This document shows positions 7,823 to 44,810 of a stretch of 64,000 nt of DNA, piece after piece. The first letter of the stretch is position 1. The number at the start of each line of letters is the position of its first letter. This stretch comes from Patiria pectinifera (taxonomy: Eukaryota > Echinodermata > Asteroidea > Valvatida > Asterinidae), in NCBI GenBank assembly GCA_029964075.1, contig CM057149.1, positions 9,806,465 to 9,870,464 on the forward strand, written 5' to 3'. The notes below the pieces were generated by a model, which saw only the letters and a list, made by a program, of their open reading frames with translations, had not been told where the DNA came from and did not search any database. The position numbers and the translations under genes were made by a program.

Positions 7823-8152
7823 AACCCTAACTCCCTAGGAATTTTGGCTAGGATGTAACCTCAATCCTGCAAAATCCTCCAACTGCCTCCATGTAAAAAA
7901 TTGCTTACTGCCTCAATCCTGCAAAATCCTCCAGCAATGACTGTCAATATGTCGAGGCAGAGCCAGTGACATCCTGGAGCAGTGCGGAGGATTTCAAGTA
8001 TAATGTAGGCCTAAAATTTGTGCACGGCTGAGCAACAACACAAGGTCCGGCCCAAGACCTTGACACGGTGCATTTTGCCACGTAGCTTCAATCCTACAAA
8101 ATCCTCCATTTTTCAAAGAGGATTTTGGAGGGTTTGGGAAGGTTAAGGTTAA
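7823..8152. mobile_element. AATCCTCC MITE (copy A)
   Basis: Starts CCCTAACTCCCTAGG and ends GGTTAAGGTTA. Paralogous to 41219-41543, so it predates the segmental duplication. Confidence 0.65.
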
Positions 8153-8894
8153 GAAAACTAAACACGCACAACTGTTAAGTTAAGGGTAATTACTTGTACA
8201 AATGTAGACTACGGAGACAATCCATGCAAATTTGGAATATAAAAAACACAATCTTTTCTTTGCCTCGTTTTTAACACGTTTAATGACCATTTCATTCAAA
8301 ACCTAAAACAAATTAACTGAATCACACATAATCTTTGCTCCATATTGTAAGTATATATTACCATTCTTATCCAAACTGATTAAATCATTATACATTATGA
8401 TACTATACATCTATGATTTGAAGGACGGGATCAAAGTATTGCACAATGTTGAATAACTTACTGCACTACACAAAAAAGTATAAACGAACATGTATGGTTT
8501 TCAAGAGTGGACTGAAAATAAGTTTTTTTTCCTCCAGAAAACTGTTTTTTTAAGGATGGTGTTCTAGAGGCTTGCCAAACCAACCTATATCTAAAATCTG
8601 AGATACATTAACAAGAATATGTACATGCATGACAGGAAAAACGCTACACACATGAGGTGTTTTTCTGTAGACACTTTGCAGTGAGCTGTACTCGCGAGTA
8701 ATTTCTTTGTGAGTACTCGCCCAGGCCTAAACAGGAATGTCCATAAATAACAGAAATTTAAACCACTGATCAATCAGTATTCCCGTTTGTGTGTTTAAAT
8801 GGCATTTTGTGAGGCAGTTGCATTTGTGGGAAAACGTAATGAAAATGTTACCGTAGTACACAGGCGAAGGCTGATTGTACAGTTTTGACAATAA

Positions 8895-9573
8895 ATCATA
8901 ATGCAATAAAACGTAAAGGTGTCATTTGAAATGGAAATGTTGAGTGTTACCATACAATTACAAACGGTCTGAATCATGGAGGAAGGTCATAATTAAGTTT
9001 CAGTATTGGACTCTTCAACAAACGTAAACTTGATTTTCTTACAATTTGCTAGACCGTTTGCAAGGAAAAAGTCGATTCAACTTTTATTCAAGTTGGTTCA
9101 ATCATCTATATAACAGCAAAATGTGGTATTAAATGTAAATGAGGGATGTAGTTGAGGAGACATGCAGTTATAAAAGCAATTTCTGTGGTGGGATCTGAGG
9201 CAATTTCTGACCACTAAAACCAATTTGAGCAAAAGATCATCTTGTAAAGTTTCGAGTTTGGAGTAATTTAATCAGCTACATGTATTCTGAGCAATTGAAT
9301 CATTATTGTAGGCTACAATTTTTATTCGGGGAACACTTTTTCTTCCCCGAATAATGCAATAAAACGTGGTGTCGTTTGAAATGAAAATGTTGAGTGTTAC
9401 CATAAAATTACAAACGGTCTGAATCATGGAGGAATTATAAGGTCATAATTAAGTTTCAGTATTGGACTCTTCAACAAACGGAAACTTGAACTTCTTACAA
9501 TTTGCGAGACCGTCTGCGAGGAAAAAGTCGATACAACTTTTATTGAACTTGGTTCAACCATCTATATAACAGC
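8895..9573. repeat. Tandem duplication, period about 457 bp
   Basis: 8895-9120 recurs at 9352-9573: both contain GTTGAGTGTTACCATA, ACAAACGGTCTGAATCATGG and CATCTATATAACAGCAA in the same order. The intervening 230 bp is not repeated again. No gene. Confidence 0.8.
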
Positions 9574-9574
9574 A

Positions 9575-10541
9575 AGTTTTACTCGGCCTCCGAGAAATGT
9601 TTGCTCCTGAAAGGATCCGAGACCGCGGTCTCCCGCGACGCCAAAATGGCTCCAAGTCCGTGGGAAAATGTGGAGGGTGTCTTCCGCCGGGTTGGACACT
9701 TTTTCGTCGATTGTTTTTCGTGACTGCGTTTAAGATCGCGTTTAAGATCCTTCGATGATCCCAAACAGGCCCCCAAAATTATAACGCGACACTGAATATT
9801 ATACGTGGCGGGCAGCAAACTCACAACGCTCAGCCTTGGTGGTGGAAGCATGGAGCTGTAAACACATTATGGAAGCAACAGCACTCAATCACGCGACGTC
9901 ACATGCTTGCGCTTCAAATAGCGAGCACCGTAGACCCAACCTCGTTTCCAGGGTGTGGAGCAGGCTGCAGTACGCGTTGCCATCGACGGTTTTACGCATA
10001 GCCGGGAAGTACCACGCAGTGTAGACTTTCGATTGGTCAGACCGCGCAAGGCATACTAATGTGTAGTCCTTCTGAGTATATGTTGCACTCGGCGCAGGGG
10101 CGGCAAGCAAAGCACAGGAAAGATTGGAGCACTTGGTGGCCACGCACCATGGAGAAAAAATATTTTGCCAAGGTCACCCCATACTAACGTTTGGTGAACG
10201 CTTTTGCAGTACGGCCGAGTAGAACACGTAAACGAAACCCCTACGTTGACCTCGCTGACCTCGCACAGTCTAGACACGCAGAAAAGCCAGCACAGGGGGC
10301 GGCCAGGCAGTCAACGTGAAAGCGCACACGACGGCAAATTCCTGCGAAAAAATTCCTCACGAAAAATCGACGAAATGGATCGCCGGTCCGTACGGGAAAA
10401 TCAGGACGACCCGAAGTGTCCGACCCGGCGGAAGACACCCTCCGCATTTTTCCACGGACGTGGAGCGATTTTGGCGCCGCGGGAGCCCGCGGTCTCGGAT
10501 CCTTTCATGAGCAAACATCGTCTCGGAGGCCGAGTTAAACT
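9575..10541. mobile_element. Foldback element with about 150-250-bp arms
   Basis: TTACTCGGCCTCCGAG at the left and CTCGGAGGCCGAGTTAAA at the right begin arms that share GGGTGTCTTCCGCCGGGT and mirror. Present only in copy A. Overlapping short frames on both strands are arm artefacts. Confidence 0.75.
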
Positions 10542-10848
10542 CTCTCTTATATATATAGATGTATAAGTACTGAGAATATACCGATCCATTACCTACTATG
10601 CGCTGGGATTATTTTTGCCGAAAACTTCAATTTTTGCAAAAGGTAAAATTTTCCAGCCAACTTCTGATATACAGTCTAACGCCACAAATACTGATTCGCA
10701 ATGAGTGATTTCAACAGTATTTGTATGATATTTCTTGCCGAAACCTCATGTTTCAATACTCTACATCATGCGCTGGAGAGTAAATTGTACAACAAGAGGC
10801 CATACACAACGGCCCATTCAAGATCAAAACACCTCCGCAGACTCACCC

Positions 10849-11598
10849 ACGTTTGTTTATGGTGTAAATCGAGGATTTTCTATTGTTCCTCTTTCCTTTT
10901 CCTTTGTTTGTACTCTAAAGTTTGTAACTTTTTCGCAACAGCTCCCATTGGTTTTGTACACGTTTTCTAATCGAGGTTATTCTCGATTTCTTTTCTGTTC
11001 TCGGTTCACGTGTGTGTCCTCGATTTACACAGGTAAACAAATGCTGGCTAAGAAACGCCAAATGGTGTTAAGACCAATAAGAGCATTGATTAGTGTGTGA
11101 CACGTGTGCACAAAAGTCGGACACGAGTATTTGCCAATATGACAAGCACGGTAGGAACATGTGGTGTAGCATTAAAGAGATGTACACATGTACTTGTTGC
11201 TCAGACATTCTTGTTTTACTATACTCTCGAGGACAATGCTTTGTGTTTCCCTTTGTCCCTATAATATAACACTTTCCCACAGACCAAGCACACAAACTTA
11301 CTACAGAGGATTGTTTCCAATAAAAGACCCAACTCCCGAGGACTGAAAGGATCTGTTGTTCTCCCTTTGTGTGTCGGTCCTCAGGGGTTATGTAGCGTTT
11401 GTTTATGGTGTAAATCGAGGACACACACGTGCAACATCATCGGTGAATCGAGGACAGGAACCAAATCCAGGACCACCTCGATTAGAAAACGTGTACAAAA
11501 CCAATGGGAGTTGTTGCGAAAAAAATTAAGAGTACAAACAAAGGAAAAGGGGAGAGGAACAAAAGGAACTCCTCGTTTTACACCACAAACAAACGTCA
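10849..11598. mobile_element. Copy-A-specific foldback element
   Basis: GTTTGTTTATGGTGTAAATC at the left mirrors the GATTTACACC-like sequence at the right; the arms share AGAAAACGTGTACAAAACCA and are about 190 bp. Copy B joins directly across this place (43100-43140), so the insertion occupies about 10766-11690. Confidence 0.75.
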
Positions 11599-11788
11599 TA
11601 GAACACGTACCGGTACACGCGTGCAGTGGGCCGGTTTAATTGATCGGTGCATTGTCACTTGTTTATTTAGGCAAAAATACTTTCTAATACTATACAAAGT
11701 ACAGTTCCTTATCACTCTAAATATTAAGTTTTGGATTAACCGGGATCGAGACTTACAGTAGATTACATGTAATGAACATCTACCAGTA

Positions 11789-12292
11789 CAGGGTGAGCAT
11801 GGTGAGTCAAAAAACACGAAACCCAAATGTCGGGACCGTTGTATTAGTGAAGTTCTGCATGTAGCACTTTCAAAATCTAGGATATGAAAGCCCAATTCAT
11901 AAGCTTTCTTTTAGTAGAAGAATCATTCAAATCACTCATGTACTTTTCAAGTTAAACACAACCACCGTTTTAAAGTTCTGTCCACGGATAACAAAAAGGT
12001 AAGTGTTCTTTCAGCAAAACGAAAACAAATCACATAGGGATGTGTGCGAATTGGTTTCGTTTTGCTGAAAGAACGCACACCTTTTTTTGTGATCAGTGGA
12101 CAGAACTTGAAAACGGTGGTTGTGTTTAAAATTCCGTAACTTGAAAAGTACATGAGTGATCTGAATGGTTCTTGTACTCAAAGAAAGCTTACGAATTGGG
12201 CTTTCATATCCTAGATTTTGAAAGTGCTACATGCAGAACTTCACTAAAACAATAGTCCCGACATTTGGGTTTCGGTTTTTTGACTCACCCTG
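11789..12292. mobile_element. Palindromic MITE, CAGGGTGAG family (copy A)
   Basis: TA-flanked, with the same inverted arms as 2558-3065. It sits at the same paralogous site as 43517-44027, so it predates the segmental duplication. Confidence 0.8.
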
Positions 12293-12332
12293 TACATAAC
12301 GGTATCTGAAGGATGCTGATGGATATTTACAT

Positions 12333-12625
12333 CTACAATAATAAAGCAGTGTTTATACAGCGCTTAAAAGCAAAGGTCTCAAAGCACTTCACAATTATTA
12401 CCCCTGTTCATCAGGCAATGAGGCTAGTTTCAGCAGCAGCTCGAGATCAGCGCATTCTGGTCTCTACCTTCACAGGTACCCGTTTATACTCCTGGGTGGA
12501 GAGAGGCAATTGTAGTCAAGTGCCTTGCCCAAGAACACAAGCACCATGTTTCCCGTCAGGGTTCAAACGCACGTATCACATCACACTAGTCGAACACCAT
12601 AACCATTGGACCACAGTGCTCCAAT
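12333..12625 (-). mobile_element. tRNA-derived SINE (copy A)
   Basis: On the minus strand an A-box-like TGGTCCAATGGTTATGG is followed by a degenerate B box GGTTTGAACCC, then TGTGTTCTTGGGCAAGGCAC and a conserved 3' body. Paralogous to 44086-44355. Confidence 0.7.
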
Positions 12626-12946
12626 ATAAAACAGGAATTTTCACATCCCAAATGCAAGTCAAATTCAGGTTTAGTTCTTTGCAGTGATTTTGTAAAGCCA
12701 ATTTACCAAATCTTGAAAAGAAGACCTCTGAATGGTTTCCTTGCACTTGTGAGACCACATTTCTCAAAAACTTACACTCTCTAAGACAACATCTTCTAGC
12801 TCTTTTCAAAAATTAGTTACATATGAAGGAAGAAAGCAACAATTTGTTGGCTTTTGGTTGGAGAGATGAATATACAAAAGTGATGAGAATGTTGCCAATG
12901 GCAACAATATGACCAATAAGTACTGCACAGCAGCGCCATCAGTTTG

Positions 12947-13256
12947 GGCCAAGTTCGCGCAAGGACTATAGTTGACCAGTGGTTAACTAACGTTTGCCCG
13001 AACTCTGTCTAGTCGACGATGGTTGACTACGCTAGTCGACTATTTGGAACCAGCCTACTGGGGTTGGTTGCTTCGCTGGTAACCAATAGCCGCGCGCATT
13101 CATAACGCTAGCAGAGAGCCAGGATCCAGAAGTTTTGCGATGACATTTTGACCAGCGTTTGACTAGAGACGTTCGCACGTTGCTATCAGTGCGCAGGCGT
13201 AAGGTACGTCACAAATCAACCACTAGTTGACTAATGGTCCTTGCCCGTACTTGGCC
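12947..13256. mobile_element. Palindromic MITE, GGCCAAGTTCG family, copy 1
   Basis: The ends GGCCAAGTTCG and GTACTTGGCC, with TAGTCGACGATGGTTGACTA in the left part. Copy B (near 44670) has the empty site, so it inserted after the duplication or was lost there. Confidence 0.75.
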
Positions 13257-13393
13257 TAGGCTTAAAAAGATTACCGAATGTCAAACAAGTTTGTTTCCAT
13301 GTAGAATACAAAAGAAAAATTAATTAAATATATTAGAAAAAAGGCACTGTAGAATGTAATTGAACACAACTAAGTAGCAATTCCCAAGTTGGA

Positions 13394-13399
13394 TTTAAT
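13394..13399 (-). terminator. Possible polyadenylation signal, copy A tail
   Basis: ATTAAA on the minus strand about 350 nt past the stop at 13748. The same hexamer is kept at the equivalent place in copy B. A variant signal, so tentative. Confidence 0.3.
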
Positions 13400-13747
13400 A
13401 AATATTTCCAAATCAAACTGTGTCTTTTAACCTCATTTCGTTGTTGAAACATTGGAGAAAAGTCATGAAAAATATAGTTTTCTGGAAAGCTGCAAAGAGT
13501 TTGACGGTTGTACTTTATACAGACTCCTGCAGCTGTAAAAACATGTCAACCATTCAAAGGGTAGTTCTAGATAAGTCAAGCTTATCTCTATCTGCAGAAG
13601 ATGAGAAACATCTCTTCGATGACGTAGCAGTAATGCACTTGTAATTTCCATGTCGGTTGCAGAAACTCCTCGATGCGAAGACGCAGATATCCAATGTCAA
13701 AGGTCGCCATTTTTTTTAGAGTACACCCACCCACCTGTGTTGCCATG

Positions 13748-13843
13748 TCAACCAAACACCGTATCCTCACAGAACTTCAGCTGCCAAATCCTGCCGCCGT
13801 AGATCTTAAAGTCTTCTCGGCCCAGCAGTGCTACCAGATCAGC
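13748..13843 (-). CDS. NEK4-like exon M' (copy A) with stop
   Basis: 31 codons plus TGA after a GAAAAG acceptor, with a few substitutions from copy B: ADLVALLGREDFKIYGG and then WQLKFCEDTVFG. The length is unchanged and the stop is at the same place. Confidence 0.82.
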   Translation of the reverse strand, partial: ADLVALLGREDFKIYGGRIWQLKFCEDTVFG

Positions 13844-16800
13844 CTTTTCAAAAATAAAGAAACAATGACAGTTTAAAAGTGTTTCTGTCAAAAGTATGCC
13901 AATCGCTAAATAGGATACAATGTTGGCAAAGTGGGGCTGTGGGTTCAAATCCTATTTTTCCCAAGAGCTGGTGCAGGGAAGTAGACCTAAAGTTTTTTCC
14001 CTCGTAAGATCTCCCCCTGAGGAATGCTTTTTGTCACAGTTGACTTGAGTAGCTTGTGACTTGACATGGGATTGGAGGACTTGTGATGGACTTATGATAG
14101 ACTTGTGAGGATCAGTGACGGACTTAAGGATCTGTGATTGATGTGTGAGGATCTGTGATTGACATGTGAGGATCTGTGATTGATGTGTGAGGATCTGTGA
14201 TGGACGTGTGAGGATCTGTAATGGACCTGTGAGGATATATTGATTTATTCGGTTGAGTACCGGGACGAATTAGAATAAATCTGCTTTATCATTGATATGT
14301 AAATGAGACACGGTAGAGTGGTTAAGGGCGGGTAATTTGAATAGGGAGTGGCGCAGGAATGTGTGCGTGGTTGGATTGAAGGTAGATCACTTCACGCTTG
14401 CGAGCAGCAACGACAACACACAATTTTTAACACAGTTAAGTCTGGTTGTAATTTCATAGTTGTTCAATGTCTCAAACAGTATTTATAAGAGACGAACATT
14501 GCTACCCTTGCCTGAAGGAGTTGTCTTGCATAGTTCAGGTGTACGTTTCCATTTTTCCAAATATGGTTTTGGTTTTTCGTATCTGGCAGTCAATACAGCA
14601 ATGTTAGATGGGGTACAAATCCAGAAACAGCCATAATGTAATAGACGAGAGGTATCTTTCGATTATTCAATTAAGTATAGCTAAAGGCTCTGAAGCCTAA
14701 AGGAAAGTTTTGTAAAGCTTAAAGGTTCAAATGAAATCCACAAGTGGCAATCAAGGAACGGTCGGAGTAGTTTCTGACGGAGGTATAAAACGAGATTTGC
14801 AGGTTGGCAGTAAGATTCATAAAGATCAGATCTACTAGATGAGATGCTAGAATTGTTCTAGCGATCTAATGCGTTCAGAACGCAAACAAGTCTGAATAGA
14901 CTTGCACCATAGTATGCGTGATTTATCCTCAGCGGAAGGTATTTGCTATTGTACAAAGCCAAAAAAGATAGTTCTGAAAAGCTTGCCTTAATATAATACC
15001 AAATGTGGTACAAATATTCAGAAATAACCATAACAATTGTAAAGAGGAGGGAAGTCTCAAGGTTAATTCTATTATTGATTACGCAAATATGCTAAATGAA
15101 AGGCTCTTACGCCTAAATGATAGACCCTAGTTCTGTAAACATTGTCTCCATCAAGACGTCTTTAAGGTTCAAATTATTGAATGATCGTAATTAAAACACT
15201 GTCGTACCTGGTAGTCATCACAGCGATGACACTAAACATAATATCAAATGGGGTACGAATATTTAGAAATAACCATAACAATTGCAAAAACGAGTGTTGT
15301 CTCAGGTATAATTCTGTATAATTAATTGCAGAGTTGTAACGAGTCACTGATTTTTGTGACTCGAGTCGAGTCGAGTCATTTTAAAGAAGTGACTCGAGTC
15401 GAGTCGAGTCATTAGGTCAACAAGGTCGAGTCGAGTCGAGTCGAGTCACAGAGTGTGGTCGAGTCGAGTCGAGTCGAGTCAAGTATTTAGCTCGAGTCAA
15501 TTCGAGTCACAAATATTTGAACACTAAATTACAATAAAAAGCAACAAACACAAGAGAGAAAGAATACAAGGCACCAGTCTATTACGGAAATCCAAAGACA
15601 TAAAGTATGCTGTATGGTACCCAACCAACAGTTTCCATTGCTAGCTCACGTCACAGATAAGAAGATGTGAAACTTCGGTCTTATAACTGGTTTGGCTTCG
15701 GGTCTAGATTTTGTTGTTCGCTGATCGCTGACAACGTTAAAACCTAATTGCTTTATACAAAACTGTTTCTGATTATTTAAAGGTGGGCCCGTCCGTATCC
15801 ATTTTTGTGTGTGAAATGGGGACATGAATTTAGCCAGCGTTCCACCAAGAACTTCAAAATCGCCCGAAACCAATGATGAAACCACGGATTGAGAAATGCG
15901 TTTTAAGTCTGGTTCCGGGTTTAGCATTACATGCTATAGAACCACAGGGTGGGAGTCCGCGACACGGTGTATGTTTGTTGTTTCATTACGGAGGAAGGAA
16001 ACAGACGGCCGCTGTATATAAACGTACATTATTCGCGAACATTAACGTGACGTGAACAAAAACTGGCAACGCGAATGGCGCAGCGTAAGTCATTGCAAAT
16101 ATTTTTTGAAAGTAAGTTTTGCTTTTATTTTGGGACTCGAGTCTTATTAGCCTTCCTCGAGTCGAGTCGAGTAATTCTGATGAGGGACTCGATTCGAGTC
16201 GAGTCATTTGCTCGCAGTGACTCGAGTCGAGTCGAGTCATTTACCCGTCGGGACTCGAGTCGAGTCGAGTCGCCAAAAAATGTGACTCGAGTCGGACTCG
16301 AGTCGAGTCATTGACTCGAGTCATTACAACTCTGATTAATTGATTACTTAAATGTGTCTATAATGAAAGGCTCTTACGCCTAGATAATAGATGATAGTTC
16401 TGTAAATACTATCAAGTCTTTAAAGGTTTGAATTATTGAAAGATGTAATTAAAACATTGGGTCGTCGTACCCGGTTGCTGCTGCAAGCACAAATACCAAA
16501 ATCAGGATGATTTGATTGTTTATTGTGTAGAATGGTGTGGAAATGATAACTGTGAATGATGTGTGAGGATCTGTAGTGGACCTGTGAGTATCTGTAATGG
16601 ACCTGTGAGGATCTGTGATTGATGTGTGAGGATCTGTGATGGACGTGTGAGGATCTGTGATGGACGTGTGAGGATCTGTAATTGACATGTGAGGATCTGT
16701 GATTGACATGTGAGGATCTGTGATTGATGTGTGAGGATCTGTGATGGACGTGTGAGGATCTGTAATGGACCTGTGAGGATCTGTGATTGATGTGTGAGGA

Positions 16801-19800
16801 TCTGTGATGGACGTGTGAGGATCTGTGATTGATGTGTGAGGATCTGTGATGGACGTGTGAGGATCTGTGATGGACGTGTGAGGATCTGTGATGGACGTGT
16901 GAGGATCTGTAATTGACATGTGAGGATCTGTGATTGACATGTGAGGATCTGTGATTGATGTGTGAGGATCTGTGATGGACGTGTGAGGATCTGTAATGGA
17001 CCTGTGAGGATCTGTGATTGATGTGTGAGGATCTGTGATGGACGTGTGAGGATCTGTGATGGACATGTGAGGATCTGTAATTGACATGTGAGGATCTGTG
17101 ATTGACATGTGAGGATCTGTGATGGACGTGTGAGGATCTGTGATGGACGTGTGAGGATCTGTGATGGACGTGTGAGGATCTGTGATGGACGTGTGAGGAT
17201 CTGTGATGGACGTGTGAGGATCTGTGATGGACGTGTGAGGATCTGTGATGGACGTGTGAGGATCTGTGATGGACGTGTGAGGATCTGTGATGGACGTGTG
17301 AGGATCTGTGATTGACATGTGAGGATCTGTGATGGACGTGTGAGGATCTGTGATGGACGTGCGAGGATCTGTGATGGACCTGTGAGGATCTGTAATTGAC
17401 ATGTGAGGATCTGTGATTGACATGTGAGGATCTGTGATGGACGTGTGAGGATCTGTGATGGACGTGTGAGGATCTGTGATGGACGTGTGAGGATCTTTGA
17501 TGGACGTGTGAGGATCTGTGATTGACATGTGAGGATCTGTGATTGACATGTGAGGATCTGTGATTGACATGTGAGGATCTGTGATGGACGTGTGAGGATC
17601 TGTGATGGACGTGTGAGGATCTGTAATGGACCTGTGAGGATCTGTGATTGATGTGTGAGGATCTGTGATGGACGTGTAAGGATCTGTAATGGACGTGTGA
17701 GGATCTGTGATCGATGTGTGAGGATCTGTGATGGATGTGTGAGGATCTGTGATGGACATGTGAGGATCTGTGATTGACATGTGAGGATCTGTGATTGACA
17801 TGTGAGGATCTGTGATGGACGTGTGAGGATCTGTGATGGACGTGTGAGGATCTTTGATGGACGTGTGAGGATCTGTGATGGACCTGTGAGGATCTGTGAT
17901 GGACGTGTGAGGATCTGTGATGGACGTGTGAGGATCTGTGATAGAGGTGTGGGGATCTGTGATTGACATGTGAGGATCTGTGATTGACATGTGAGGATCT
18001 GTGAAGGACTGGTGATGCACTCGACTGCAAGACTGGAGGGCAGGAGGCTGGCCCTTCAGGTCCAGCAACAGGACTCTTACCTCCACTGACTCTTCGTCAT
18101 CGTTATCCAGGCAGTCGTAAGCCTTCTGAAGCATCTCAATCCCGATGCCGTTCATGATGTCTTTCCTCAGAGCTGCGATCTTGTCCTTCAGTCGGTCCGA
18201 ATTGTCCGATGTTGTCATTGTTGCATTACCTGGAAGGTCAAACATAAATGAAAACTGAGAAATTGTGCAAGTCTGTGTGTGTGCAAGTATTGTACTGTTA
18301 CCTTTCTGTGAGGTACTGATGAGCATGTGAATCTTTTAAGCATAGTCAAGTTTCTCTAGACATATTTGCTTGTACCTCCCATAGTAATAGTCACTCACAG
18401 TACAAGACGTTCACAAGTTGGGTCACAAAGTAATGGAAAGTAAAGGGGATGAACATTTAACAATGACTAAAGTAGGCCTCTCTTTCACATGTTTAATTTA
18501 AAAAGCTTTTAACTTGGTGAGACTGATGGCCATATAATTGAATTGTGCATATATTACGGGTAGAATGGAAACTGAGTACCCTATTGAAGCAAAACATGGG
18601 TACCCGGGTACCCGTTAAAGAACCCAACCCCAAAATTCAAATCTTGGAAGTTGTCTGAAGGGCGTTATAGCTTTACGGTGTAAACTGCAACTTTCGCGAG
18701 CATCATCTGTCCACTTTAAAATGCACATAAATATGAAATCTGTTTTGGTTTTCCAAGTCAACTGGTTTTCATTTTCAAAATTCTCCACAAATGGTATTTA
18801 TCACCTTTCTCCTTCATTGTCTGAGAAGTTACTAAGTAATTTATAAAGTTGGTTATGGGAACTCGTGTGATCTCATAATCTGGAACTGGTTCCTGACAAC
18901 AGCGGTTGGGAACTCGGGTACCCGGTTCCGATGCACAGCCCTAGTACTTAACTTTAACTGTTTTACTTTAATAGCAGCATGCAATGCATAACTCATAACA
19001 TTGGATGGATTCTACACGTAATTAATGGCTTCTACTCCATCATGTGCAATGAGACACATAGCCACCCAGATCTCCTTCCACCCAGACCTCCCCTCCCTCC
19101 CCCCTCCCTCACCCCCCCCATTTTTTTTTTTAAATAACAAATAAAAAGTTGGAGTTTGGTGTTTTGGGAAAGAATATAGTATCCAGACGCCACTTCTTTG
19201 GTTGTGTACAAAGTCTATGAAGAGTCGAGTGCATTTTCAAAGTATTATCTGACAAAACTGGAAATGTTTCTCAGTCCCAGATTCATGTCTTTTCATCAGT
19301 ATTTTTGTACTGACTGACCTTCATTGAGATGATATTTGATGAAAAGAGTGGGGTCAGGATGCAACTTCTTTCGGTGTTTTGGATTATTGGAAAAATTCAA
19401 GTTGTTTCCCTGAAAACTTGATGTCATTATGGTGCTGAGTTCCAAACGTGGATGAAAAGAGATATGAAACCTTAAAATAGTGTTCATTTTGACTAGAAAT
19501 TCAGTTTAATATTAGTGCTGGCATATGACACACATGTAAAGGTTTTCATGTTTAAAAATGAATCAAATATGGTGATTTACAAAATGCATGCTTGAGTGAC
19601 TGAAATGAAACATGCATGGGTTGCCATATAAACAAACAAAATAACAGCAACTATTGGAACAAAATTTTACCTGGTTGTGCTTTTGTAAAAATCATTCTAG
19701 CCCCCCCCCCCCAAAAAAAAACAATTAAACAAAAAACGAACAAGCAAAGACAAAATATCCACAATTGAACATTAAGAACAAATTTAAATACAAATACATT

Positions 19801-22800
19801 TCAAAAATAAACAAATTAAAAAATCAACCGAAACACAGAAATAACAAATAAAATCATTATGTTTTGTGTTCAACAACATGCCCTACGATTTGAAAAAAAA
19901 AATTGGTGTTGTTATTGTTAAAGATAATGATCTTGGAGCAAACTCATGGGCAAAAGGCATCCCTGGCGAACCTGGTTAACAAAAACGTATTAAATTTGCA
20001 AGCAGGGTGGATTCAATTATTATTGAAATGAAAGGATTTGTGGGGGAAAACAACAAACAAACAAAAAAGTGTGTAGTTTACGGTCAAGGAATGACATCTC
20101 CACATCACATGAAAAACAGAGGTATGCACCACTCATTGAACAGGCACTGTTAGAAATCTAAAATGCTTCAAGCTCAAATATCTAAACCAAGGGCGATTTT
20201 TGGTCCGTTTACAGTCATAATTTTGGGTTACATTCAGGGGTGCAAATCCTGGGGCGTGGGGGTATAAACATTTATCCCTCCCCCACACACTTTTTGGCTA
20301 GGGCAAGGGCTTATCATTCCCCCCCCCCCACGCTTTTCCGTGGTGAGAACGAAGGCAGATTTTGAGGTATTATTCAAACTTCCCGACAACCAAAATGTAT
20401 TCAAAAGCACCAGTTGATAAACAAAGAAAAAAAAGTACAAAAGCTTAAAAAGTGTCGTTTTGGTGTAAGGTTGAGGCATGTAACACAGCATAAGTATCAA
20501 GAACAGCGCTTCCTAGTGTAAGGTGGTGTACAGCCCCCACTCGAATTTCCACATCCGGGCAACTTGTTGATTTTGGTCACATCCCCAGCACATATTTACA
20601 CCACTGGTTCCACTAGGGTATCTCTAGTCTTTAGCTGGGGTTTACTTTGAGAGAAGAAAGGGGCCCACCAAATATCATACGGAGTTATTCTATCTGATAT
20701 ATTGTCATTGAAGCGACACTAATATTTTCAAGATGTTGCTCAAGCTGGCCTTGAATTCAGTCCCCAATAATGTCTCGTGTCCCATGACTCAATGAAATAT
20801 GATTGCGGTCTCATTCAGTATTGTAGTCGAGACCATCACAAGACCACCACAAGTCCATCACAAGACGATCACAAGATGATCACAAGTCTCAAGCTATCCG
20901 CTCCATTCACACGTACCCCCTCACCGGCAAAGGAAGTACAGTTCATTTTCCGCAATTCATTTTCCGCGAAGCGCTGCCACTGCGTGTACATAGTACAAAT
21001 CCCCTGGTGTACATGCGTCACACACAAGGAATGGTGCGCGTCAACCAGCGAAATGTCCCACCTATGGGACGTCGTTGGTAAGTAAAAGGGCGTTTTTTCT
21101 TTCGGTAACGCACAGAGCTCATACAAATGAACTCCAACAAAGGCATTCCTTTGTCATTGTTTGTAACCTGTTGTGGCTTGTCTTGTGGCTGGTCTTGTGC
21201 TTGCTCTACAATTGGTCTTGTGTCGTCTACATATAGTCTCGTCTACAACACTGATCATAACCTGCTAGTATCAACCCAATTCTAGAAAATCTGCAGGAAA
21301 TATTCATAAAACGGTGGGAATACCTCATGTTGATATTTTCAACCACGTGGGGAATTTCGGAGTAATACTGCGAGAAGTATTGACCGGATTTGTACAGTAC
21401 TTACCAAGTCAAAAAAATACGAAATACAGTGTAAAATGTTGTCTGAAAATTGAACCTCACAGCCGGATTCTAAACATTAGGATAATAAAAGTAATGTTCA
21501 TTTGAAGAAGGACCAAACCGAATTTGAGTGTGTATCATCACACAAATATTTTTACATTTCTTGCATATTTCTGAATCCAAACACTCACATTTATACTGAT
21601 TCATATTACTCATCCCACACAGCCCAGGTACCAAGACTCATCTCAATTAGCGTTTCACAGTCATACTGAACCAAATAGAGCGACTCATGTCATAAGACAT
21701 AATTTGGTTTCGGATAGGCAAAGTTTATGTATGAGTTTTGCATTGTCTAGGCTCGGGACGCGTTCCAGAGTCATACAACATTGAATACATAAGAACAATT
21801 TCAACCTCGTTTCCATGGGTACGATCTTGCTGCGCCATTTTGTTTCCCATCATGACTTGCGCGATCTTAACCCCTGGAATTGTCTTATTTAAATGTGTCA
21901 AAAATATGCAGTCGATGTATAAAACGCGTGCCGCCAAGTTTAAAATGTTCAAAGTTGGTGTTTTTTTTTTGAAGAATCAATCCTTTCAAACAAAAGGTTT
22001 CGGCGTTGCGTTATTTAGCAAGGATTTGTATTATATGTACGTACCTCTTCCGTCACTTAACAACCCAAGATAAAGGTTTTGTTTGGGCGAAAAACGAGGC
22101 TACCATAATCCACATCACACGGGCATCGCACAGTTTTGAAAAAAACCCACATGTTCGTATGTGACGTGACTTGCATAGCACGTGAGCGCCCGATATGTTC
22201 GTATGTGACGTGACTTGCATAGCACGTGAGCGCCCGATATGTTCGTATGTGACGTGAGTCACGTGACTTGCATAGCACGTGAGCGCCCGATAGGGCATGC
22301 AGTCTTCGAAATGCGTGAGCAGTACGCTCTGAATAGACGGTCAGCATCGCACGCGCCCATGGAGTCACGGCTGGAATAATTTAGATGGGCCCGACTCCTG
22401 AATGTCATTCCAAAACCAGAGTTTGGTTTGATTCCAGCTATACGTCTTTGTTTCTCAGTATTCTTGGGTCTTAGAAAAATACTGGTCCTCAACACAAGAG
22501 TGTACTAGGGAATGTGCAGGCTACTGCACACCACAAACACATGAATGCATTTCCTACACGTACTTGAAGTACAATTTGTGCCGCTCAGGTTGGGTACGTC
22601 TAGTTTTAGAGTCGACTCCAGGAGGGAGGGGAATGCTGACATCTCTTTCTCCTCGCTGAAAGGAACAGAGAAAAAAATGAGATGAGGACCAAAAATGTTG
22701 GAGCAGCTAAGCAGAAAATGTACCACTCAGCCCAAGAAAAGGAGTCTGAATTACTTAAAGGTAGGGTAGATCATTTGTCATTTGTGCATTTTTTTTCCGT

Positions 22801-25800
22801 TTGAAGCAACAAAACGTGAGGCCGTATAATTTTGTTGATTTGTATTTACTTAGCTACCAATATGTTACCTACTTTTTGTCTGTGTTGTGAGTCCCAATGA
22901 CCAAAGGCTTAAGGCTACTTCATAATTCATGAAATCCAATTTGAACAAGACTTTGTAACATTAAGACAAGTGTTCCTTTGCAGGAGTTAAAACACATTTT
23001 GACTGGGAATGTGTTAAAACACAAGTTTGACCGAGAATGTGTTAAGTAAGATTAGAGGCTTTGCATGGTAGAAATACTAAATAATGAAAGATTTGCGGAA
23101 ACACCATGTGCGAATAATTTCTCAACTAAGAGAATTAAAATTCCCACATCAACGACCACAAAGTTGATTGGGATGCGGCCGAACTCATCGCACCGATCCA
23201 GTTCTGGCATCCAAGACGCATACGGGAAGCCATCGAGATCCGCAAGCACAACACAGTTCCGCAAGACATCGGGTTTCACCTCAACGACATCTGGCTCCCA
23301 CTCCTCCAGACTGATGGGTCTCCTATACCCTAGGTCCTCCCTCTACTGACACTGCAACCCTACTGCTCCACTTCAGTGGGCACCAAGCTTGCTCTAAGAT
23401 CCCAGCTACCACACAGGATGCAACTTCACACTTCATCCCTTTCGCTTCTGCTACATACCGTAAGTGTTTAGTTTACGCATCCTCGTGAAGACGGTCAGAG
23501 CATACTGACCGGAACGAGTTTATACCTCTGGTCAGAAGCATTCTTTTAGTTGAGAAATTATTCGTACATGGTGTTTCCGCAAAGCCTTTCATTATTTATT
23601 GGGAATGTGTTGTTAAGTCAATTCGCTTTGCATTCAAATCATGTTTGCATGTAGTACGAACCAGCTTTTACTCGTTTCAAACAAAACCTGATACGAGAAA
23701 ACCCATCCTCACTTTTTCTTAGCCTTTTCTGGAGCATCAGTAGAATTATCTGAGTCATCATCTCCTACCCTTGGTCTATCAGAACGCCGTGATGCTGCAT
23801 TAACCTTTGACCTTTGGTGCAGATGAGCTTTGACCTTTGGTGCAGATGAATCCACTTCATTAGGACCTTTCACCTTAACCTACATAGGGACAATATCGTC
23901 AATTTAATAAAGGAACGTCTGAAAATTGGATAAAAGGTCTAAAAGATGTTTGTTTTTCTATACTGATAAGGTCGATCTCTCAAATTCAAAAAGTCTGAAA
24001 AAAGGAAATTGCAATATTTGACCCCCTACGAGAGCTCGCAAAATGGGACCCATTGTGTGTGGGCACTTGTTCACGACAGAAGGTACAACACTAATTTTTC
24101 ATCAGACAAATGCAATGCTGTGTCCTTTTATTGGTGTCTGGTATAAGGCGTCTAACTTCCTCTTTGTCACCTCGAAGGAGAATTTGTAATGGAGTTCACA
24201 GGATTGGGCTCCAGGCACAAGTACCCCTTCAATGGTAAGAAAGGGAGAGTTTGGGGAGACCACTGGGGCAGACATTTGAACAGATTGCCAACAACGCGTA
24301 ATGCTCTTGTGTTTGTGCACATTCCAAATAACATGAGTTGTGCGTACTTAGCGCCATACGCACGTGAACCTGTACACACATGCAGTGCTTTCAGTCCACT
24401 GGGCTCTCTAAAGAGGTGAAAGCGCCCTCTCTTTTTAGCACACAGAGCCCATAAGGTATAAGCTATGAAAGAATCTTATTGCTACCAAACTATGATGAAA
24501 TCATGAACTGAAGAAATCTTGACCATGGTTGTGAGGTCTAAGCAAGCAAAACCTTACGATGATACATGTAGCAACTCACCCTGTGTGGAGGGTTGGGGTC
24601 AAACTTGGACCGTGTTGCTCTTGTTTTTACTACACCGCTGCTTGACTTTCTGCCTGCTGCAGCATCAGAAGAACTGCACACTGGAAAGCAGACATGAAAC
24701 AATTTAACCAACATAACAGTCATAGATAAATTATCTTATTAAAGTAACCCGCCTATACTTGTAACTATCACAAACTGTCAAATACCTACATGTAACCCTG
24801 ACTCCTCTCAATAGCTTTTGTACAGACTGGTCACCAACTACCAGGTCCCCCTATGCATTAAGTACAAGTACCCATAGCTGCCAACTTTTCAAAATCCCAA
24901 TTAGTAATCAACCCGCGCGGTCATTTTCAACTTCTCGTTTTATCAAAAGCTGTACCAACATCGAGTACAGGTACATCTGTACATGGTTTACATGTACACA
25001 TACATGTGCATACCCTTCTTGTTGTGAATAATAATGTACTGTAGGCCAAAAGATAATTAAAAAAAATATAAAAAAATTAATATATTTTTTTTAAAATTAA
25101 TTTTGTTTTAATGTCCGTATTTGTTTAATACAACAAATAATAACAATAATAACGTGCACATATTTTTTGAGATACATGCTATCGATGTGGAGTTTCGAGT
25201 TCGTATCTTCAGATCTTGTTTTTACACACAATGATTTAGGGCCACAGTATGCAATAGAAATATCCCGCCAACATACCTTGCAAACGCATGCTGATTTATC
25301 TTTTCTGGACGTTGTGACAAACTCAAACTCTATTACCAATTATTCCAACCATACTCTTATTAAATTTCATGATTAAAATCTCGCACTGTGATGGGTCTCA
25401 TCCCGGCAATAAGCGACCAAATGTGCTCACGATCGTCACTGAAAAGTACTCACATACAGTACACACAACCACACATCTACGAGATGCACACAAATGACAC
25501 ACCATTGAAAAATAGTTTTAGTCTGGTCCTCAAGTACTCCACTGCGCACACTACATTGATGTCTATCAAGTGCTTGACTGCATTCTTATTAGACTTGTCA
25601 CCAGTCCATCCATTATTTCGACATTTCGCCAGAAGTTTTCCGTCAAAAACAATACTTTACAAGTATTATTTTTACCATTTTTTTAGAAAATGGGAAATTC
25701 GTAATGTTTTAGTGGCAAATCGTATTTTCGTAATTTAACAAACAATTCGTAATAATTACGAAAAATTCGTAACAGTTGGCAGCTATGAGTACCCCTTCAC

Positions 25801-28800
25801 CGGCAAAGAGAGTACAGTTGGGGGTGACCGACCGACGCCATCTTGCTTGACTGCAATTTTGCTGCGACGAGTGGCCGTACCATGTACCACTGCGTGTACG
25901 TAGTTCAAATCCCCTGGTGTGCGTGCGTCATTGCATCACACTCACACACAAGGAACGGTGCGCGTCAACCAGCTAAATGTCCCACCCATGGGACGTCGTT
26001 GCTAAGTAAAAGGGCCCCCTCTTTTGTTAGTGCACAGAGACCATAACTGCCACAGCCTGTTGAAGTGGTTTGATAGATTAGGGTGACCATTAATACTGGT
26101 ACAGCTTGTGTAGCAGCCATTTTAACCGTCAATTACAAAGTACCAATATGAGGCAGGCTTACGGACCTGTTAGAAATTGTAACCTGTTAGATTTTGACCC
26201 ATACCCGGTGCGGTTACTCTCTACAGATTCTCACTGCGAGAGGGAGGGATAAATAATAAAGACAAGAAATAATATTTCAGAAGTGATCAGAAATGTATTA
26301 TGTACAAAAATGCTATGCATCTGCGTATCATGTAGTGCTTTATAAGAAATGCAAAGAAATTCTGATCTAGCTTGGACAGGATAAAATTTCTTTTGAAGGA
26401 AAGGACAAGGTTCAAGATTTGTTTTGAGGTAAAAGTAAAATAAGTGGCGGAGAGTGTGGCAAAGTGGTTAGGGTTTGTGTCTCATGATCAGAGGGCCAGG
26501 GGTTCGAATCCAGCTGCTGGTCATAGGTTGTGTCCTTGGGCAAGCCACTTCACTCCAACATGCCTCTCTCCACCCAGGAGTATGGGTATTAGCATTAGCT
26601 GGCTAGTAACCTGCAATGAACAGGCATCCCATCCAAGGGAACAGAAATATTTCCAGGTCTTCCATGCCAAGGAAACTGGAGATAAACTGCAACTTTAGCG
26701 AGCATCATCTGTGGCACTTTAAAATGCACATAAATGTGAAATCTGTTTTGGTTTTTCCAAGTCAACTGGTTTTCATTTTGAAAATTCTCCACAAATGGTA
26801 TTTATCACCTTTCTCCTTCATTGTCTGAGAAGTTACTAAGTAATTTATAAGGTTGGTTATGGGAACTCGCGTGATCTCATAATCTGGAACCGGTTCCTGA
26901 CAACAGCGGTTGGGAACTCGGGTACCCGGTTCCGATGCACAGCCCTAGTACTTAACTTTAACTGTTTTACTTTAATAGCAGCATGCAATGCATAACTCAT
27001 TACATTGGATGGATTCTACACGTTATTAATGGCTTCTACTCCATCATGTGCAATGAGAAACATAGCCACCCAAATCCCCTTAATCCCCTTATATTACTAA
27101 CAGCTATAATAGGGCGACAGATTTTGCTAACTCCGTCCACAATAGGGCGACACACCTTATTAAGGCGACACATAACTGTCGCCCTTTTGTGAAAATGACC
27201 CTTAGGACAAGGAATTTTGCTGTCGCAAACCATCTAGATCGGTTCCTCATGGTCCAATTAGTAAAAATACTAAATTTCGTGGAAAAAAGATAAGGTAAAC
27301 TTGGGTTAGGTGACAGTTTAGGTTTGTGCACAAGTCTATGGGAAAGTCGCCCTATTGCAGCAAAAACAGTTATTATTATTATTATTATATTACTAACAGC
27401 TATAATAGGGCGACAGATTTTGCTAACTCCGTCCACAATAGGGCGACACACCTTATTAAGGCGACACATAACTGTCGCCCTTTTGTGAAAACGACCCTTA
27501 GGACAAGGAATTTTGCTGTCGCAAACCATCTAGATCGGTTCCTCATGGTCCAATTAGTAAAAATACTAAATTTCGTGGAAAAAAAGATAAGGTAAACTTG
27601 GGTTAGGTGACAGTTTAGGTTTGTGCACAAGTCTATGGGAAAGTCGCCCTATTGCAGCAAAAACAGTTACTATTATTATTATTATTATTATTATTGTTAT
27701 TATTATTATTATTATTAAATGTTTCTCAGTCCCAGATTCATGTCTTTTCATCACTTTTTTGCAATGACTGACCTTCACTGAGATAATATTTGATGAAAAG
27801 GGTGGCGTCAGGATACCATGTTTTTTAGTATTGAGAAAATTCCAGTTGTTTCCCTGACAACTTGATGTCATTATGGTGCTGAGTTGCAAAACTGGATGAA
27901 AGAGATACGCTACCTAAACCCTAACCTTCCCAAATCCTCTTTGCAAAACGGAAGATTTTGCAGGATTGAGGCTATATGGCAAACATGTGTAGCTGAGTTT
28001 GAAGGATACACTGTTTCAAGGTCTTGGGCTGGACCTTGTGTTGTTTATGCTCATAAATTTAGGCCTAGATTGTACTTGAAATCCTCCGCACTGCTCCTGG
28101 ATGTCACTGGCTCTGCCTCAACATATTGACAGTCATACATGTAGCTGGAGGATTTTGCAGGATTGAGGCAGTTGTCACCCCTCTAAGAGCCACATTCAAG
28201 AAATAACGGAGGATTTTGCAGGATTGAGGATATAGGCCTATGCTATTTTAATAGGAGGCAGTTGGAGGATTTTGCAGGATTGAGGCAGTGGTCACCCCTC
28301 TAAGTACCAAATTCAAGAAATAGTGGAGGATTTTGTAGGATTGGGGCTGTACATGCCGTATGCACTTTTTACATGGAGGCAGTTGGAGGATTTTGCAGGA
28401 TTGAGGTTACATACTAGAAAAAATGCCTAAGGAGTTAGGGTTAAAATTGTGTTCGATTTTGCCTAGAAATTAAGTTTAGGAAGTGCTGGCATATGACAAA
28501 GACACACATATAAAGGTTTAGATGTGTATTGTAAATTTAGGACAACGAAATACTGACTCACTGGTAGTAGGCCTACTGTGCATGCCTACTTGAGAATTGT
28601 GAACCTTCAACCAATAAAACGGTGAAAGCAACTGGATTTCATAGTTGTTCAAATTTCATGTGACACCGCTAAACTGTCTTAGGTATCGGTATTTATGAAT
28701 GGAAAATTAATTACATACACAGAGAAGACGGATTCGTTCTGTTCGTATGCCAGTATAAAAAGTCGTTCTTAGGGCATAATCTTTTATTATGTATTAACAA

Positions 28801-29459
28801 TTTAAAAGATACCGTACCTCAATGGAAATGCATGTATGCAAAGACTGGCATGATGAACATGTACATGTACATACCACATTCAAAAACAGTTTACCAAAAA
28901 AAAGAAAGAAATACCGACCCTTCAGTTTTTCGGCGATGTTACGGGAAACCGGAAAATTATTAAGGGGAAAACAAGCTCTGGATTAGTCTTAAACAAAGAC
29001 AGGTGAAACTGCTGGGTTTCACACTTCTGTTGTATCGTCATTACCTGCAGAATCACCAATCGGATTTGGTTCCGTGCACGTGATGGGTTCCCTTGACATC
29101 AGGTACCCCTCTGCGTCTTGCTCTTGCTGTTGTTGCTCATATTGCATCGGAACTCCTGACCGTTCAACCTCCTCAAGTTTCCTCACTAACAACTCATACA
29201 GATGATGGTGCCCCGAATCAAGATCTTGCAGGGATTTCACCAAGGCATCGAATGCCCTGTCGCTTCGTCGGGGTATTAACTCCAAGAGCTGGCGCACTTT
29301 CTCCTTTCGCGTCTGCTTGAATTCTACTTTCTCCTGGTCATCCCGGGTGAAGACCCTGTCCACGATGAGATAGTCCATGACATCATCGGGTTCCAAGTCT
29401 TTGACCAATGTGACGCGACATTCATCCAGCACCTGCGCATACTTCGCTGACATAGACAT
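13748..29459 (-). CDS. Predicted chimeric gene: CARD domain joined to a duplicated NEK4 C-terminal tail
   Basis: Joining 29459-29045, 24680-24580, 23879-23713, 22655-22564, 18229-18081 and 13843-13748 gives 1,020 nt, or 339 codons plus TGA, with all junctions in phase. Residues 1-138 come from one CARD exon; 139-339 match the linker and C-terminal block of the NEK4 gene at 45-62 kb. There is no kinase domain. CARDs mediate homotypic assembly in apoptosis and innate immune signalling. The role of the NEK4 tail is unclear, so no function is assigned. The five tail exons are directly visible and intact. The join to the CARD exon is inferred from shared strand, proximity (a 4,364 bp intron), donor CAG/GTAATG and phase. 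The alternatives are a CARD-only gene plus a tail driven by an unseen exon. Confidence 0.5.
14080..14235. repeat. Detached left part of the 21-bp minisatellite
   Basis: About seven units with the same consensus and variants as the main array at 16558-18003, after a few degenerate units. The array breaks abruptly at GAGGATATATTG, indicating that later sequence was inserted or amplified within it. Confidence 0.85.
14590..15320. repeat. Diverged tandem repeat, about three units
   Basis: Related blocks near 14612, 15010 and 15250 share GGTACAAAT-like and AACCATAA-like motifs and a later AAGGCTCTTACGCCTA motif (also at 16368). Spacing is irregular (about 240-400 bp). The third unit is interrupted by the hAT-like element at 15329 and resumes at 16343. 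Confidence 0.6.
15329..16334. mobile_element. Non-autonomous hAT-like element with 8-bp target duplication
   Basis: The ends are CAGAGTTGTAA inverted repeats, flanked on both sides by ATTAATTG (15321-15328 and 16335-16342). The subterminal regions are dense GAGTC/GACTC repeats in opposite orientations. The 8-bp duplication and CAGAG tip fit the hAT superfamily. No transposase frame is present. Confidence 0.85.
15640..16090. other. Internal region of the hAT-like element, no gene seen
   Basis: Moderately GC-rich sequence with only short open frames on both strands and no recognisable transposase motif. Confidence 0.5.
16558..18003. repeat. 21-bp minisatellite, about 69 units, in last intron of copy A
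   Basis: The unit is GTGAGGATCTGTGATGGAC plus two bases, with recurrent variants (TTGACATG, TTGATGTG, TGGACGTG, TGGACCTG). Because 21 is divisible by three, all frames stay open and give ITDPHTS, VHHRSSH and CDGRVRI peptide repeats. Only about three units remain at the paralogous place (45823-45872). A further seven or so units lie at 14080-14235, cut off by a 2.3 kb insertion. Confidence 0.95.
18081..18229 (-). CDS. NEK4-like exon L' (copy A)
   Basis: 149 bp, three codons longer than copy B (SDNSDRLKDK region) and otherwise nearly identical through [19 protein letters not shown] to EESVE. Donor GAG/GTAAGAG. The frame continues through the donor into a very long minisatellite reading frame, interpreted here as intron. 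Confidence 0.82.
18675..19560. repeat. Duplicated block, uninterrupted form
   Basis: 18675-19063 is almost identical to 26685-27072, and 19268-19560 matches 27718-27900 plus 28440-28530. 19064-19267 is C-rich low complexity. GGTTCCGATGCACAGCCCTA marks an old transposon end. No gene. Confidence 0.7.
19561..22563 (-). other. Intron sequence between K' and L' of copy A
   Basis: AT-rich with poly-A and poly-C runs. 19900-19990 is paralogous to 49500-49590. Holds the 44-bp repeat at 22151. No coding exon recognised. Confidence 0.6.
22151..22291. repeat. 44-bp tandem repeat, three units, with CRE-like and E-box motifs
   Basis: The units start at 22151, 22195 and 22239; the third has a 9-bp internal duplication. 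Each contains TGACGTGA (CRE/ATF-like) and GCACGTGAGC (E box). Lies in the intron between K' and L'. Confidence 0.85.
22564..22655 (-). CDS. NEK4-like exon K' (copy A), shortened
   Basis: 92 bp. It starts [19 protein letters not shown] like the native exon, but the acidic region is deleted between two CCTG sequences. A new donor CAA/GTACGT is proposed shortly after. With it the exon keeps phase 2 in and 1 out and is 135 bp (45 codons) shorter than copy B. Without that donor the frame reaches TAG about 6 nt later. Confidence 0.68.
23713..23879 (-). CDS. NEK4-like exon J' (copy A)
   Basis: 167 bp, 12 bp longer than the native exon. The difference lies at an internal repeat of a segment reading SAPKVK in the native exon. 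The frame is open and ends at donor AAA/GTGAGG in the same phase as copy B. Acceptor ATGTAG. Confidence 0.8.
24580..24680 (-). CDS. NEK4-like exon I' (copy A)
   Basis: 101 bp, phase 1 in and phase 0 out, acceptor TTTCCAG, donor AGG/GTGAGT. It reads CSSSDAAAGRKSSSGVVKTR and ends FDPNPPHR, one codon longer than its paralogue at 52959-53056. Splice sites are conserved. Confidence 0.8.
26440..26640 (+). mobile_element. tRNA-derived SINE (copy A)
   Basis: A box TGGCAAAGTGGTTAGGG, B box GGTTCGAATCC, then GTGTCCTTGGGCAAGCCACT. At the right end of the duplication block. Confidence 0.75.
27091..27670. repeat. Two nearly identical 296-bp units in tandem
   Basis: The units start at 27091 and 27387. 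Each begins TATTACTAACAGCTATAATA and ends near TCGCCCTATTGCAG, so each unit has TAATAGGGCGAC/GTCGCCCTATT inverted ends. The near identity suggests a very recent duplication. ATT microsatellite separates and follows them (27665-27717). Confidence 0.85.
27914..28444. mobile_element. AATCCTCC MITE in rearranged region
   Basis: CCCTAACC at the left and GGAGTTAGGGTTAA at the right. It interrupts a repeat whose uninterrupted form is at 19268-19560. Confidence 0.65.
28783..28788 (-). terminator. Possible polyadenylation signal for a CARD-only transcript
   Basis: A canonical AATAAA on the minus strand, 231 nt past the TGA at 29019. It would end a transcript that ignores the internal donor at 29045. 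Downstream U/GU-rich sequence was not rigorously assessed. Confidence 0.35.
29019..29459 (-). CDS. CARD-domain protein, 146 codons if unspliced
   Basis: The ATG at 29459 lies 14 nt inside an exon that begins after a good CATGCAG acceptor (29474), so a 5' untranslated or leader exon lies upstream. Residues about 5-98 form a CARD, with VTLVKDLEPDDVMDYLI at helices 1-2 and RQLLELIPRRSDRAFDAL at helices 4-5, then HLYELLVRKLEE. The closest resemblance is to the CARDs of initiator caspases and RAIDD/CRADD-like adaptors. The tail (99-146) is Gln/Glu-rich and unrecognised. The frame ends TGA at 29019. A donor at 29045/29044 would remove the last 8 codons and allow splicing to the NEK4-like exons. The ATG is chosen because the CARD starts immediately after it, although the 14 nt upstream have no stop. 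Confidence 0.85.
   Translation of the reverse strand: MSMSAKYAQVLDECRVTLVKDLEPDDVMDYLIVDRVFTRDDQEKVEFKQTRKEKVRQLLELIPRRSDRAFDALVKSLQDLDSGHHHLYELLVRKLEEVERSGVPMQYEQQQQEQDAEGYLMSREPITCTEPNPIGDSAGNDDTTEV
29045..29459 (-). CDS. First coding exon of the predicted chimera (CARD)
   Basis: 415 nt, 138 codons plus one base. The donor CTGCAG/GTAATG leaves a single G, which joins TG of the next exon to make Val 139. This is the nearest same-strand coding exon upstream of the five copy-A tail exons, and it is the one that supplies the required phase. Confidence 0.5.
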
Positions 29460-30000
29460 GCTGCTTTTGATATCTGCATGAGAAAAAGAAAATTCATGTT
29501 TTCTTAAAATGTTATTGTAACAATGTTGTATATTAGGGCCTAAAGTCTTTCTTATTTGTTAGGGAAACTATTTCCCTTTTAAAGACTGCATGTAAGTCTT
29601 GCCCACTGGCAGAACTAGGACTAAAGCTGACCAGCCATTGTGAATCTGAAACAAGGGGAGCTAGAGGCTGAGTTGGGGGAGGACTCATGATGATACTGTT
29701 GCCACTCTTCTCTTTCCCCCTTCTTTCTCTTTTCTGTCTTTCTTACAGACCTTATCTATAGCAAGCATCTCCGAGGGCAATGCCTTTGCTTTGCTGGGAT
29801 AAACAGGAGTGAAACCTGAGACCAAATAAAAAAAAAACATTTTTAGCGTCCTGCCTTTTTGAAGAAAAGGAAGGCCTGTTGGAGGCCCTTTTTTCCCCTC
29901 CTCCAAAATGGCCGCCCGACTGGGCTATTTTTCAAAATGGACCCCCTAAAAATATTGGAGTCAGAAGGACAATGGGAACAGGGAACCAGACTAGCTCATG

Positions 30001-30133
30001 GCTGGCATCAGACAGACCAATCACAGGGCGCTTCGATTGGTCACCTCAATTGGCCAATCACATGGCGTCTCGATTGAGTGTCTCCACGGTGACCAATCAA
30101 AGTGCCTTGTGATTGGTCCATCTGATGCTAGCC
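30001..30133. promoter_or_regulatory. Palindrome carrying six CCAAT boxes
   Basis: The arms 30001-30044 and 30089-30133 are inverted copies (GCTGGCATCAGA with mirror). CCAAT or ATTGG occurs at 30017, 30036, 30049, 30054, 30093 and 30112, four of the six as CCAATCA or its reverse. It lies about 530 bp upstream of the CARD exon acceptor, a plausible NF-Y-bound promoter region. It could instead be a MITE. Confidence 0.45.
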
Positions 30134-30524
30134 AGAAAACAGTGTAGCCAGAAGCCAGAAGCCATGCACAAGTCAATTTTTCCTGAATTCAAAATGGCAG
30201 TCTCAAACACGGCCCGTGCGACGAGGATGTTTCCCAAATTGAATGTGAAATTTCTCTTTTCTTCCCAAAGGTATGCGAACGTAAACACCACCATTTGTAT
30301 TTCCAGTTCCCACTGAAGCCTACAGGGTACATCAGGCAGCTTGAGGACTGTTTCAGGGGTGAAATTTGAAGATTTTGATGGGGGTACGAGTGAAAATGGC
30401 AAAAAGAAATAATTGGTAAACGCGATACAGCTATGCTTCTCGGACCCTACTATCGCCCGACCATGTCCAAATGTTAAAAAAGGCGATTTGTAGAGTCCTA
30501 GTTACTCGGACTCATGACATACTC

Positions 30525-32966: not shown

Positions 32967-32982
32967 CTCCTTAAGGTGTATT

Positions 32983-44027: not shown

Positions 44028-44085
44028 TACATACCAGTATCTGACGAATGCTGATGGATATTTACATCTGAAATAATACATGCGG

Positions 44086-44804: not shown

Positions 44805-44810
44805 TTTAAT
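44805..44810 (-). terminator. Possible polyadenylation signal, NEK4
   Basis: ATTAAA on the minus strand about 350 nt past the NEK4 stop at 45161, paralogous to the one at 13394. Tentative. Confidence 0.3.

Follow-up and report, generated by a model that had tools for sequence, protein, structure and literature searches.

A candidate exon-shuffled fusion of a CRADD (RAIDD) CARD exon with NEK4 tail exons in the sea star Patiria pectinifera

Introduction

CRADD, also called RAIDD, is the adaptor of the PIDDosome and combines a CARD with a death domain: the death domain binds PIDD1 and the CARD binds procaspase-2 (PMC7308375, in part). NEK4 binds RPGRIP1 and RPGRIP1L, has been observed at the ciliary base and may serve as a scaffold there (PMC4367857, in part). 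The locus described here lies in a window of 64,000 nucleotides, meaning the whole stretch of Patiria pectinifera DNA that was analysed; positions are given in window coordinates, also for the DNA to its right. With CRADD the locus has in common a CARD exon and a phase-1 donor, and an intact CRADD copy is found 10 kb outside the window. In contrast to CRADD, the window copy lacks a death-domain exon and is followed by exons of a NEK4 tail instead. These tail exons (T1 to T5) belong to the non-kinase C-terminal region of NEK4, and each has its counterpart in the complete gene, T3 matching only partly. Unlike NEK4 itself, this copy of the tail (copy A) comes without kinase exons, and its T3 is shortened.

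New genes have reportedly arisen from structural change in a study of tandem duplications in Drosophila yakuba. Chimeric genes formed by local rearrangement are a known kind: in D. yakuba, rearrangements have given rise to new genes in which the 5′ ends of genes are joined to new downstream sequence (PMC6776367, in part). Those chimeras are documented by population and expression data, whereas the present case is argued from the genome sequence alone. Domain recombination among the cell-death genes of an invertebrate is likewise described in amphioxus, where death-fold caspases carry shuffled domains; these are caspases with DED or DD, and the available text of the paper mentions no NEK tail (PMC3196919). 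In the open-access library searched, no paper brings NEK4 together with a CARD domain, the titles and abstract starts among the matches listed contain no CRADD-NEK4 fusion, and RAIDD is not named among the matches listed in a further search. Within the literature searched, CRADD and NEK4 appear to be new as a parent pair.

Table 1. Coordinates of the features discussed, in window positions (copy A, rearranged copy; copy B, the one inside the complete NEK4 gene)
Feature	Position	Strand	Remarks
Copied NEK4 3′ segment (tail copy A)	6624..26629	-	patchy homology to 39164-54040
T5, copy A, with stop	13748..13843	-	pairs with copy B exon
T4, copy A	18081..18229	-	pairs with copy B exon
T3, copy A, shortened	22564..22655	-	92 versus 227 nt; donor CAA/GTACGT
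T2, copy A	23713..23879	-	12 nt longer than in B; 23-bp tandem duplication inside
T1, copy A	24580..24680	-	needs 1 base; best of 65 acceptor/donor pairs
Junction filler between NEK4-tail copy and CRADD piece	26630..28523		1.9 kb, repeat-rich
Repeat, left end of inverted block	28524..28666		common to NEK4 intron 55937-56073 and CRADD-B intron 75458-75609
Residual 5′ part of CRADD intron	28524..29044	-	contains TGA 29019 and AATAAA 28788
CARD-A exon, putative first coding exon of duplicated CRADD copy (CRADD-A)	29045..29459	-	PF00619; donor CAG/GTAATG, 1 base left
Upstream DNA common to CARD-A and CRADD-B, presumed 5′ region	29474..30512	-	sequence match; 2-kb insertion on CRADD-B side
Inverted NEK4 5′-end relic: upstream DNA and intron 1	36877..38579		exon 1 missing at 37139
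Copy B, within complete NEK4 gene	39164..54040	-	exon-by-exon pairing with copy A
T5, copy B	45256-45161	-
T4, copy B	46087-45948	-
T3, copy B	51536-51310	-
T2, copy B	52591-52437	-
T1, copy B	53056-52959	-
NEK4 kinase-domain exons	59498..62696	-	exon 1 at 64785-64693, outside window

CRADD origin of the CARD exon

In a profile search, CARD-A matches PF00619 with 70.3 bits (E 1.5e-19; gathering score 23.9); scored together with a second copy, CARD-B, it reaches 71.2 bits, almost equal to the 73.5 bits of that copy. A search with the CARD gives a single further strong match, at 74234-74671 on the plus strand, outside the window; the CARD-B exon itself spans 74234-74648, ten kilobases to the right of the window, with 93% identity over 144 amino acids. 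Acceptor and donor are identical in the two copies. The intact gene to which CARD-B belongs (CRADD-B) continues with a death-domain exon (75724-76082), whose acceptor needs the single base that the CARD donor leaves, and the gene model joins the two exons in frame to encode 257 amino acids. The top PDB match of this death domain is CRADD (E 9e-17, with a query one residue short), and it also matches Pfam Death (4e-12). Because an identical donor of identical phase joins CARD-B to a CRADD-type death-domain exon, CARD-A is assigned, from its sequence, to a duplicated CRADD that has lost its death domain, as the first coding exon of that gene. By tblastn across 104 kb, no death-domain exon or relic is found beside CARD-A. 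In a death-domain search of the genome (150 of 328 candidates scored), the CRADD-B exon is the only near-identical one and all others reach at most 53%. Many of these death-domain places are located on one contig (C22), which suggests a large death-domain gene family; a genome search for the CARD profile PF00619 gives 11 places.

Homology of CARD-A to the intact copy stops at 28524 (equivalent to 75594), 130 bp short of the start of the death-domain exon there. On the other side of the exon, the upstream DNA that both copies possess is presumed to contain the promoter and 5′ region of CARD-A. At 29474-29704 the differences from CARD-B are few, fewer than in the CARD coding exon. About 240 bp upstream of CARD-B, outside the window, a 2.07-kb element (71928-73988) is present that is absent at CARD-A; its two ends have ~9 bases in common, and a 96% identical copy occurs at 65394-67444.

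The duplicated NEK4 tail

The tail copy has its counterpart at 53056-45161, within the complete NEK4 gene, and the two lie on one strand. In a search of the 613.5-Mb assembly (1020 contigs) in which only the best candidates were scored, T1-T3 (6 exon matches) and T4-T5 (4) match only copies A and B at E values up to 0.1. T4 matches what we take to be the C-terminus of human NEK4. A tblastn search with the kinase domain against the 104 kb matches only 62.7-59.5 kb, in copy B, in agreement with the original prediction of a product devoid of this domain.

The five tail exons had also been described as intact, a description that fails for T3. Just the first ~70 nt of this exon align with the NEK4 exon; by eye, the next 99 nt of the parent are gone, 12 bases agree, and the remainder is lost together with the native donor. 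The frame through T3 depends on a donor that is unused in the parent exon (Table 1), and the lost 3′ end is not found elsewhere in copy A.

Just past the T4 donor of copy A, the minus strand carries a 21-bp minisatellite (16550-18009) with 69.5 copies, against 2.6 in copy B. All three minus frames run through it without a stop (511-628 aa), which gives rise to long spurious ORFs. Between the copies, only 2 differences fall in the T4 core together with the initial 60 bases of the following intron (18021-18170 vs. 45888-46040), fewer than in the surroundings, and gene conversion is a possible source of the T4 similarity.

Rearrangement history

The block that carries CARD-A duplicates, in inverted orientation, the DNA that separates NEK4 from CRADD-B. 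Its homology extends from 28524/75594 to 30512/71103, over 31041-32530/70703-69526, and from 36877/65269 to 37703/63939. Weaker pieces reach 38554/63669 and are followed by 28 bases (38552-38579/62762-62736) with a weak match (E 2.5e-4). Exon 1 of NEK4 falls in a stretch that is absent from the inverted copy, and the homology of tail copy A ends in the NEK4 intron preceding T1. The filler at the junction of the two pieces has no match to the expected sequence of either parent; intron sequence of the complete NEK4 gene (copy B) was searched for in it and not found. At its left end the inverted block has a repeat that occurs in introns of both parents, with the CRADD-B copy inverted relative to the NEK4 copy. 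A repeat-mediated inversion is attractive but not proven.

Judged from the homology blocks, the best and simplest history would combine duplication, inversion and deletion. A head-to-head NEK4-CRADD pair would have been duplicated, and in one copy the block comprising the 5′ part of NEK4 and CRADD would have been inverted, the breaks falling within a NEK4 intron and within the intron of CRADD. If the 5′ part of NEK4 was also deleted from the rearranged copy, the CARD exon of CRADD would come to lie upstream of the last five exons of NEK4 and share their strand. The partial duplication put forward in the original prediction stands insofar as the tail exons are copied; however, the CARD exon too has been duplicated, and inversion and deletion are required as well. 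In its origin and architecture, the locus is very probably what its parts suggest, a candidate exon-shuffled fusion.

Splicing and reading frame

When the CARD exon and the five tail exons on its strand are joined, they yield 1020 nt, corresponding to the 339 codons and stop that had been predicted. The junction agrees in phase as claimed, the CARD donor leaving one base and T1, whose phase is taken from its reading frame, needing one. The chance of such a match by itself is 1 in 3. More telling are the donor shared with the intact CRADD gene model and the rank of T1 among the exons that the interval after the CARD donor could supply. Scored with a splice-site matrix, T1 ranks first among 65 acceptor/donor pairs (candidate exons of 40-300 nt, acceptor and donor scores both at least 0) and first among the 12 that have no stop in the frame that the donor imposes; its acceptor ranks third among the 231 AG sites between the CARD donor and T1. 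Of the 3801 GT sites on its strand, the CARD donor itself scores within the top 1.7%; it has no G at +5. Because this donor in its CARD-B version suits a death-domain exon of phase 1, the fusion is more plausible than the window by itself would indicate. The assembly contains no retrocopy of the joined CARD/T1 sequence, only the separate exons being matched (4 places).

Divergence and constraint

Tail copies A and B, compared at 179 well-aligned codons, have a dN/dS of 0.23 (CI 0.12-0.43), where a pairwise value of 0.5 or more is expected if copy A had been unconstrained throughout. The first runs (0.35 and 0.30) included badly aligned codons of T2-T4, which the 179-codon set drops. For the CARD exons dN/dS is 0.26, with an interval that spans 0.5 (CI 0.11-0.66). 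In simulations, survival of the tail frame under neutrality is 0.022-0.044 near the measured rates and 0.165 at half rate, and that of the CARD exon 0.08-0.14. The dN/dS and the frame survival of the tail hint at past constraint.

The tail exons are no better conserved than their surroundings: substitutions amount to 48/559 (0.086) in exons versus 387/5540 (0.070) in noncoding DNA, as counted over 13 chosen collinear blocks, with four short blocks left out. The dN of the tail, 0.051, is near the noncoding rate, and the low dN/dS stems from a dS of 0.365 in T1-T2. In these two exons 12 of 29 differences alter a CpG, and the high dS may reflect CpG decay. Indels in the exons measure 3, 12 and 9 nt in one alignment and 1, 8, 5, 7 and 3 nt under BLAST. 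The high similarity at the CARD exon and T4 may result from gene conversion, in which case their intactness becomes weaker as evidence. Part-time constraint fits these data, which cannot tell a working fusion from two once-complete genes that were lately broken.

Alternative explanations

The locus could be the remains of duplicated NEK4 and CRADD copies that were once complete and useful and have recently been broken by inversion and deletions; no meaningful fusion would exist, and the frame would still be open for want of elapsed time. We regard this as a serious possibility, a little short of an even prospect. It covers the signs of past constraint together with the divergence of the exons at the noncoding level, and it accommodates a NEK4 copy that has lost exon 1 and the kinase exons, a CRADD copy that has lost its death-domain exon, and a damaged T3. 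However, the six-exon frame survives, even through the replaced end of T3, T1 is the best exon in its interval, and the splice sites of the CARD exon are kept.

It is quite improbable that CARD-A encodes a CARD-only protein, a RAIDD without death domain, with a transcript that stops at the TGA and uses the poly(A) signal beyond it while the tail exons go unused. The TGA at 29019 comes after 146 codons and the AATAAA at 28788 follows 231 nt further on; this signal is retained in the CRADD-B intron and could bring about an early transcript end, and the donor without G at +5 also speaks for read-through. Yet the CRADD gene model uses the donor at 29045, which puts the TGA in what is intron there and weakens read-through as a rival. 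In that model the intron leads to a death-domain exon in matching phase, and the read-through frame of CRADD-B stops two codons earlier, a difference that is costless if the stretch is intronic. An assembly error, in which haplotype copies or misjoins mimic a duplication and inversion, is highly improbable. Two similar copies do lie near each other in one assembly, but they differ by 7% in noncoding DNA and in many structural features, copy A has neither the kinase nor exon 1 nor the death-domain exon, and the contig measures 40 Mb.

The putative fusion product

If the rearranged locus does act as a fusion gene, the transcript would begin in the copied 5′ region of CRADD, and the CRADD donor would be spliced to the first NEK4-tail acceptor, both being of phase 1 and in frame. 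That such an mRNA is made is, like the reading as broken copies, a little short of an even prospect. The product would consist of the RAIDD CARD minus the death domain, followed by ~200 residues of the NEK4 non-kinase tail. It would be expected to bind a caspase-2-type CARD and not PIDD1, with the tail setting its location, and the most likely effect would be competition with RAIDD or relocation of its partner. A functional protein is predicted to be unlikely. We are similarly sceptical that intron-intron recombination of neighbours has created a new gene that ties caspase-2-type signalling to a ciliary scaffold instead of PIDD1.

NEK7 acts on NLRP3 via its kinase region. A connection to this inflammasome role, raised as speculation in the original prediction, finds no support and is rejected: the CARD comes from CRADD (RAIDD) and the product has no kinase exon. 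The pathway of relevance is RAIDD-caspase-2, not NEK7-NLRP3.

If the fusion is made, the locus would be a clear example of exon shuffling, with parents, broken copies and traces of rearrangement all within ~70 kb and each step of the birth of a gene readable. A RAIDD CARD on the tail of a kinase that may be a ciliary scaffold would also bear on how caspase-2-type adaptors may be placed without PIDD1. If it is not made, the locus is a worked example of rearranged exons nearing a working fusion by chance.

Other features of the window

Rfam and tRNA scans of the window give nothing. Pfam frame scans covered 24501-39500 (three minus and two of the three plus frames), 1-14999 (one minus frame), and three plus frames each of two further stretches (L005 and L006). 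A 1-kb stretch at 33685-34699 has 93% identity to its own reverse complement. A family of palindromic elements of ~500 bp is represented at 2555-3068, 11798-12294 and 43526-44029, with a half copy at 1333-1531.
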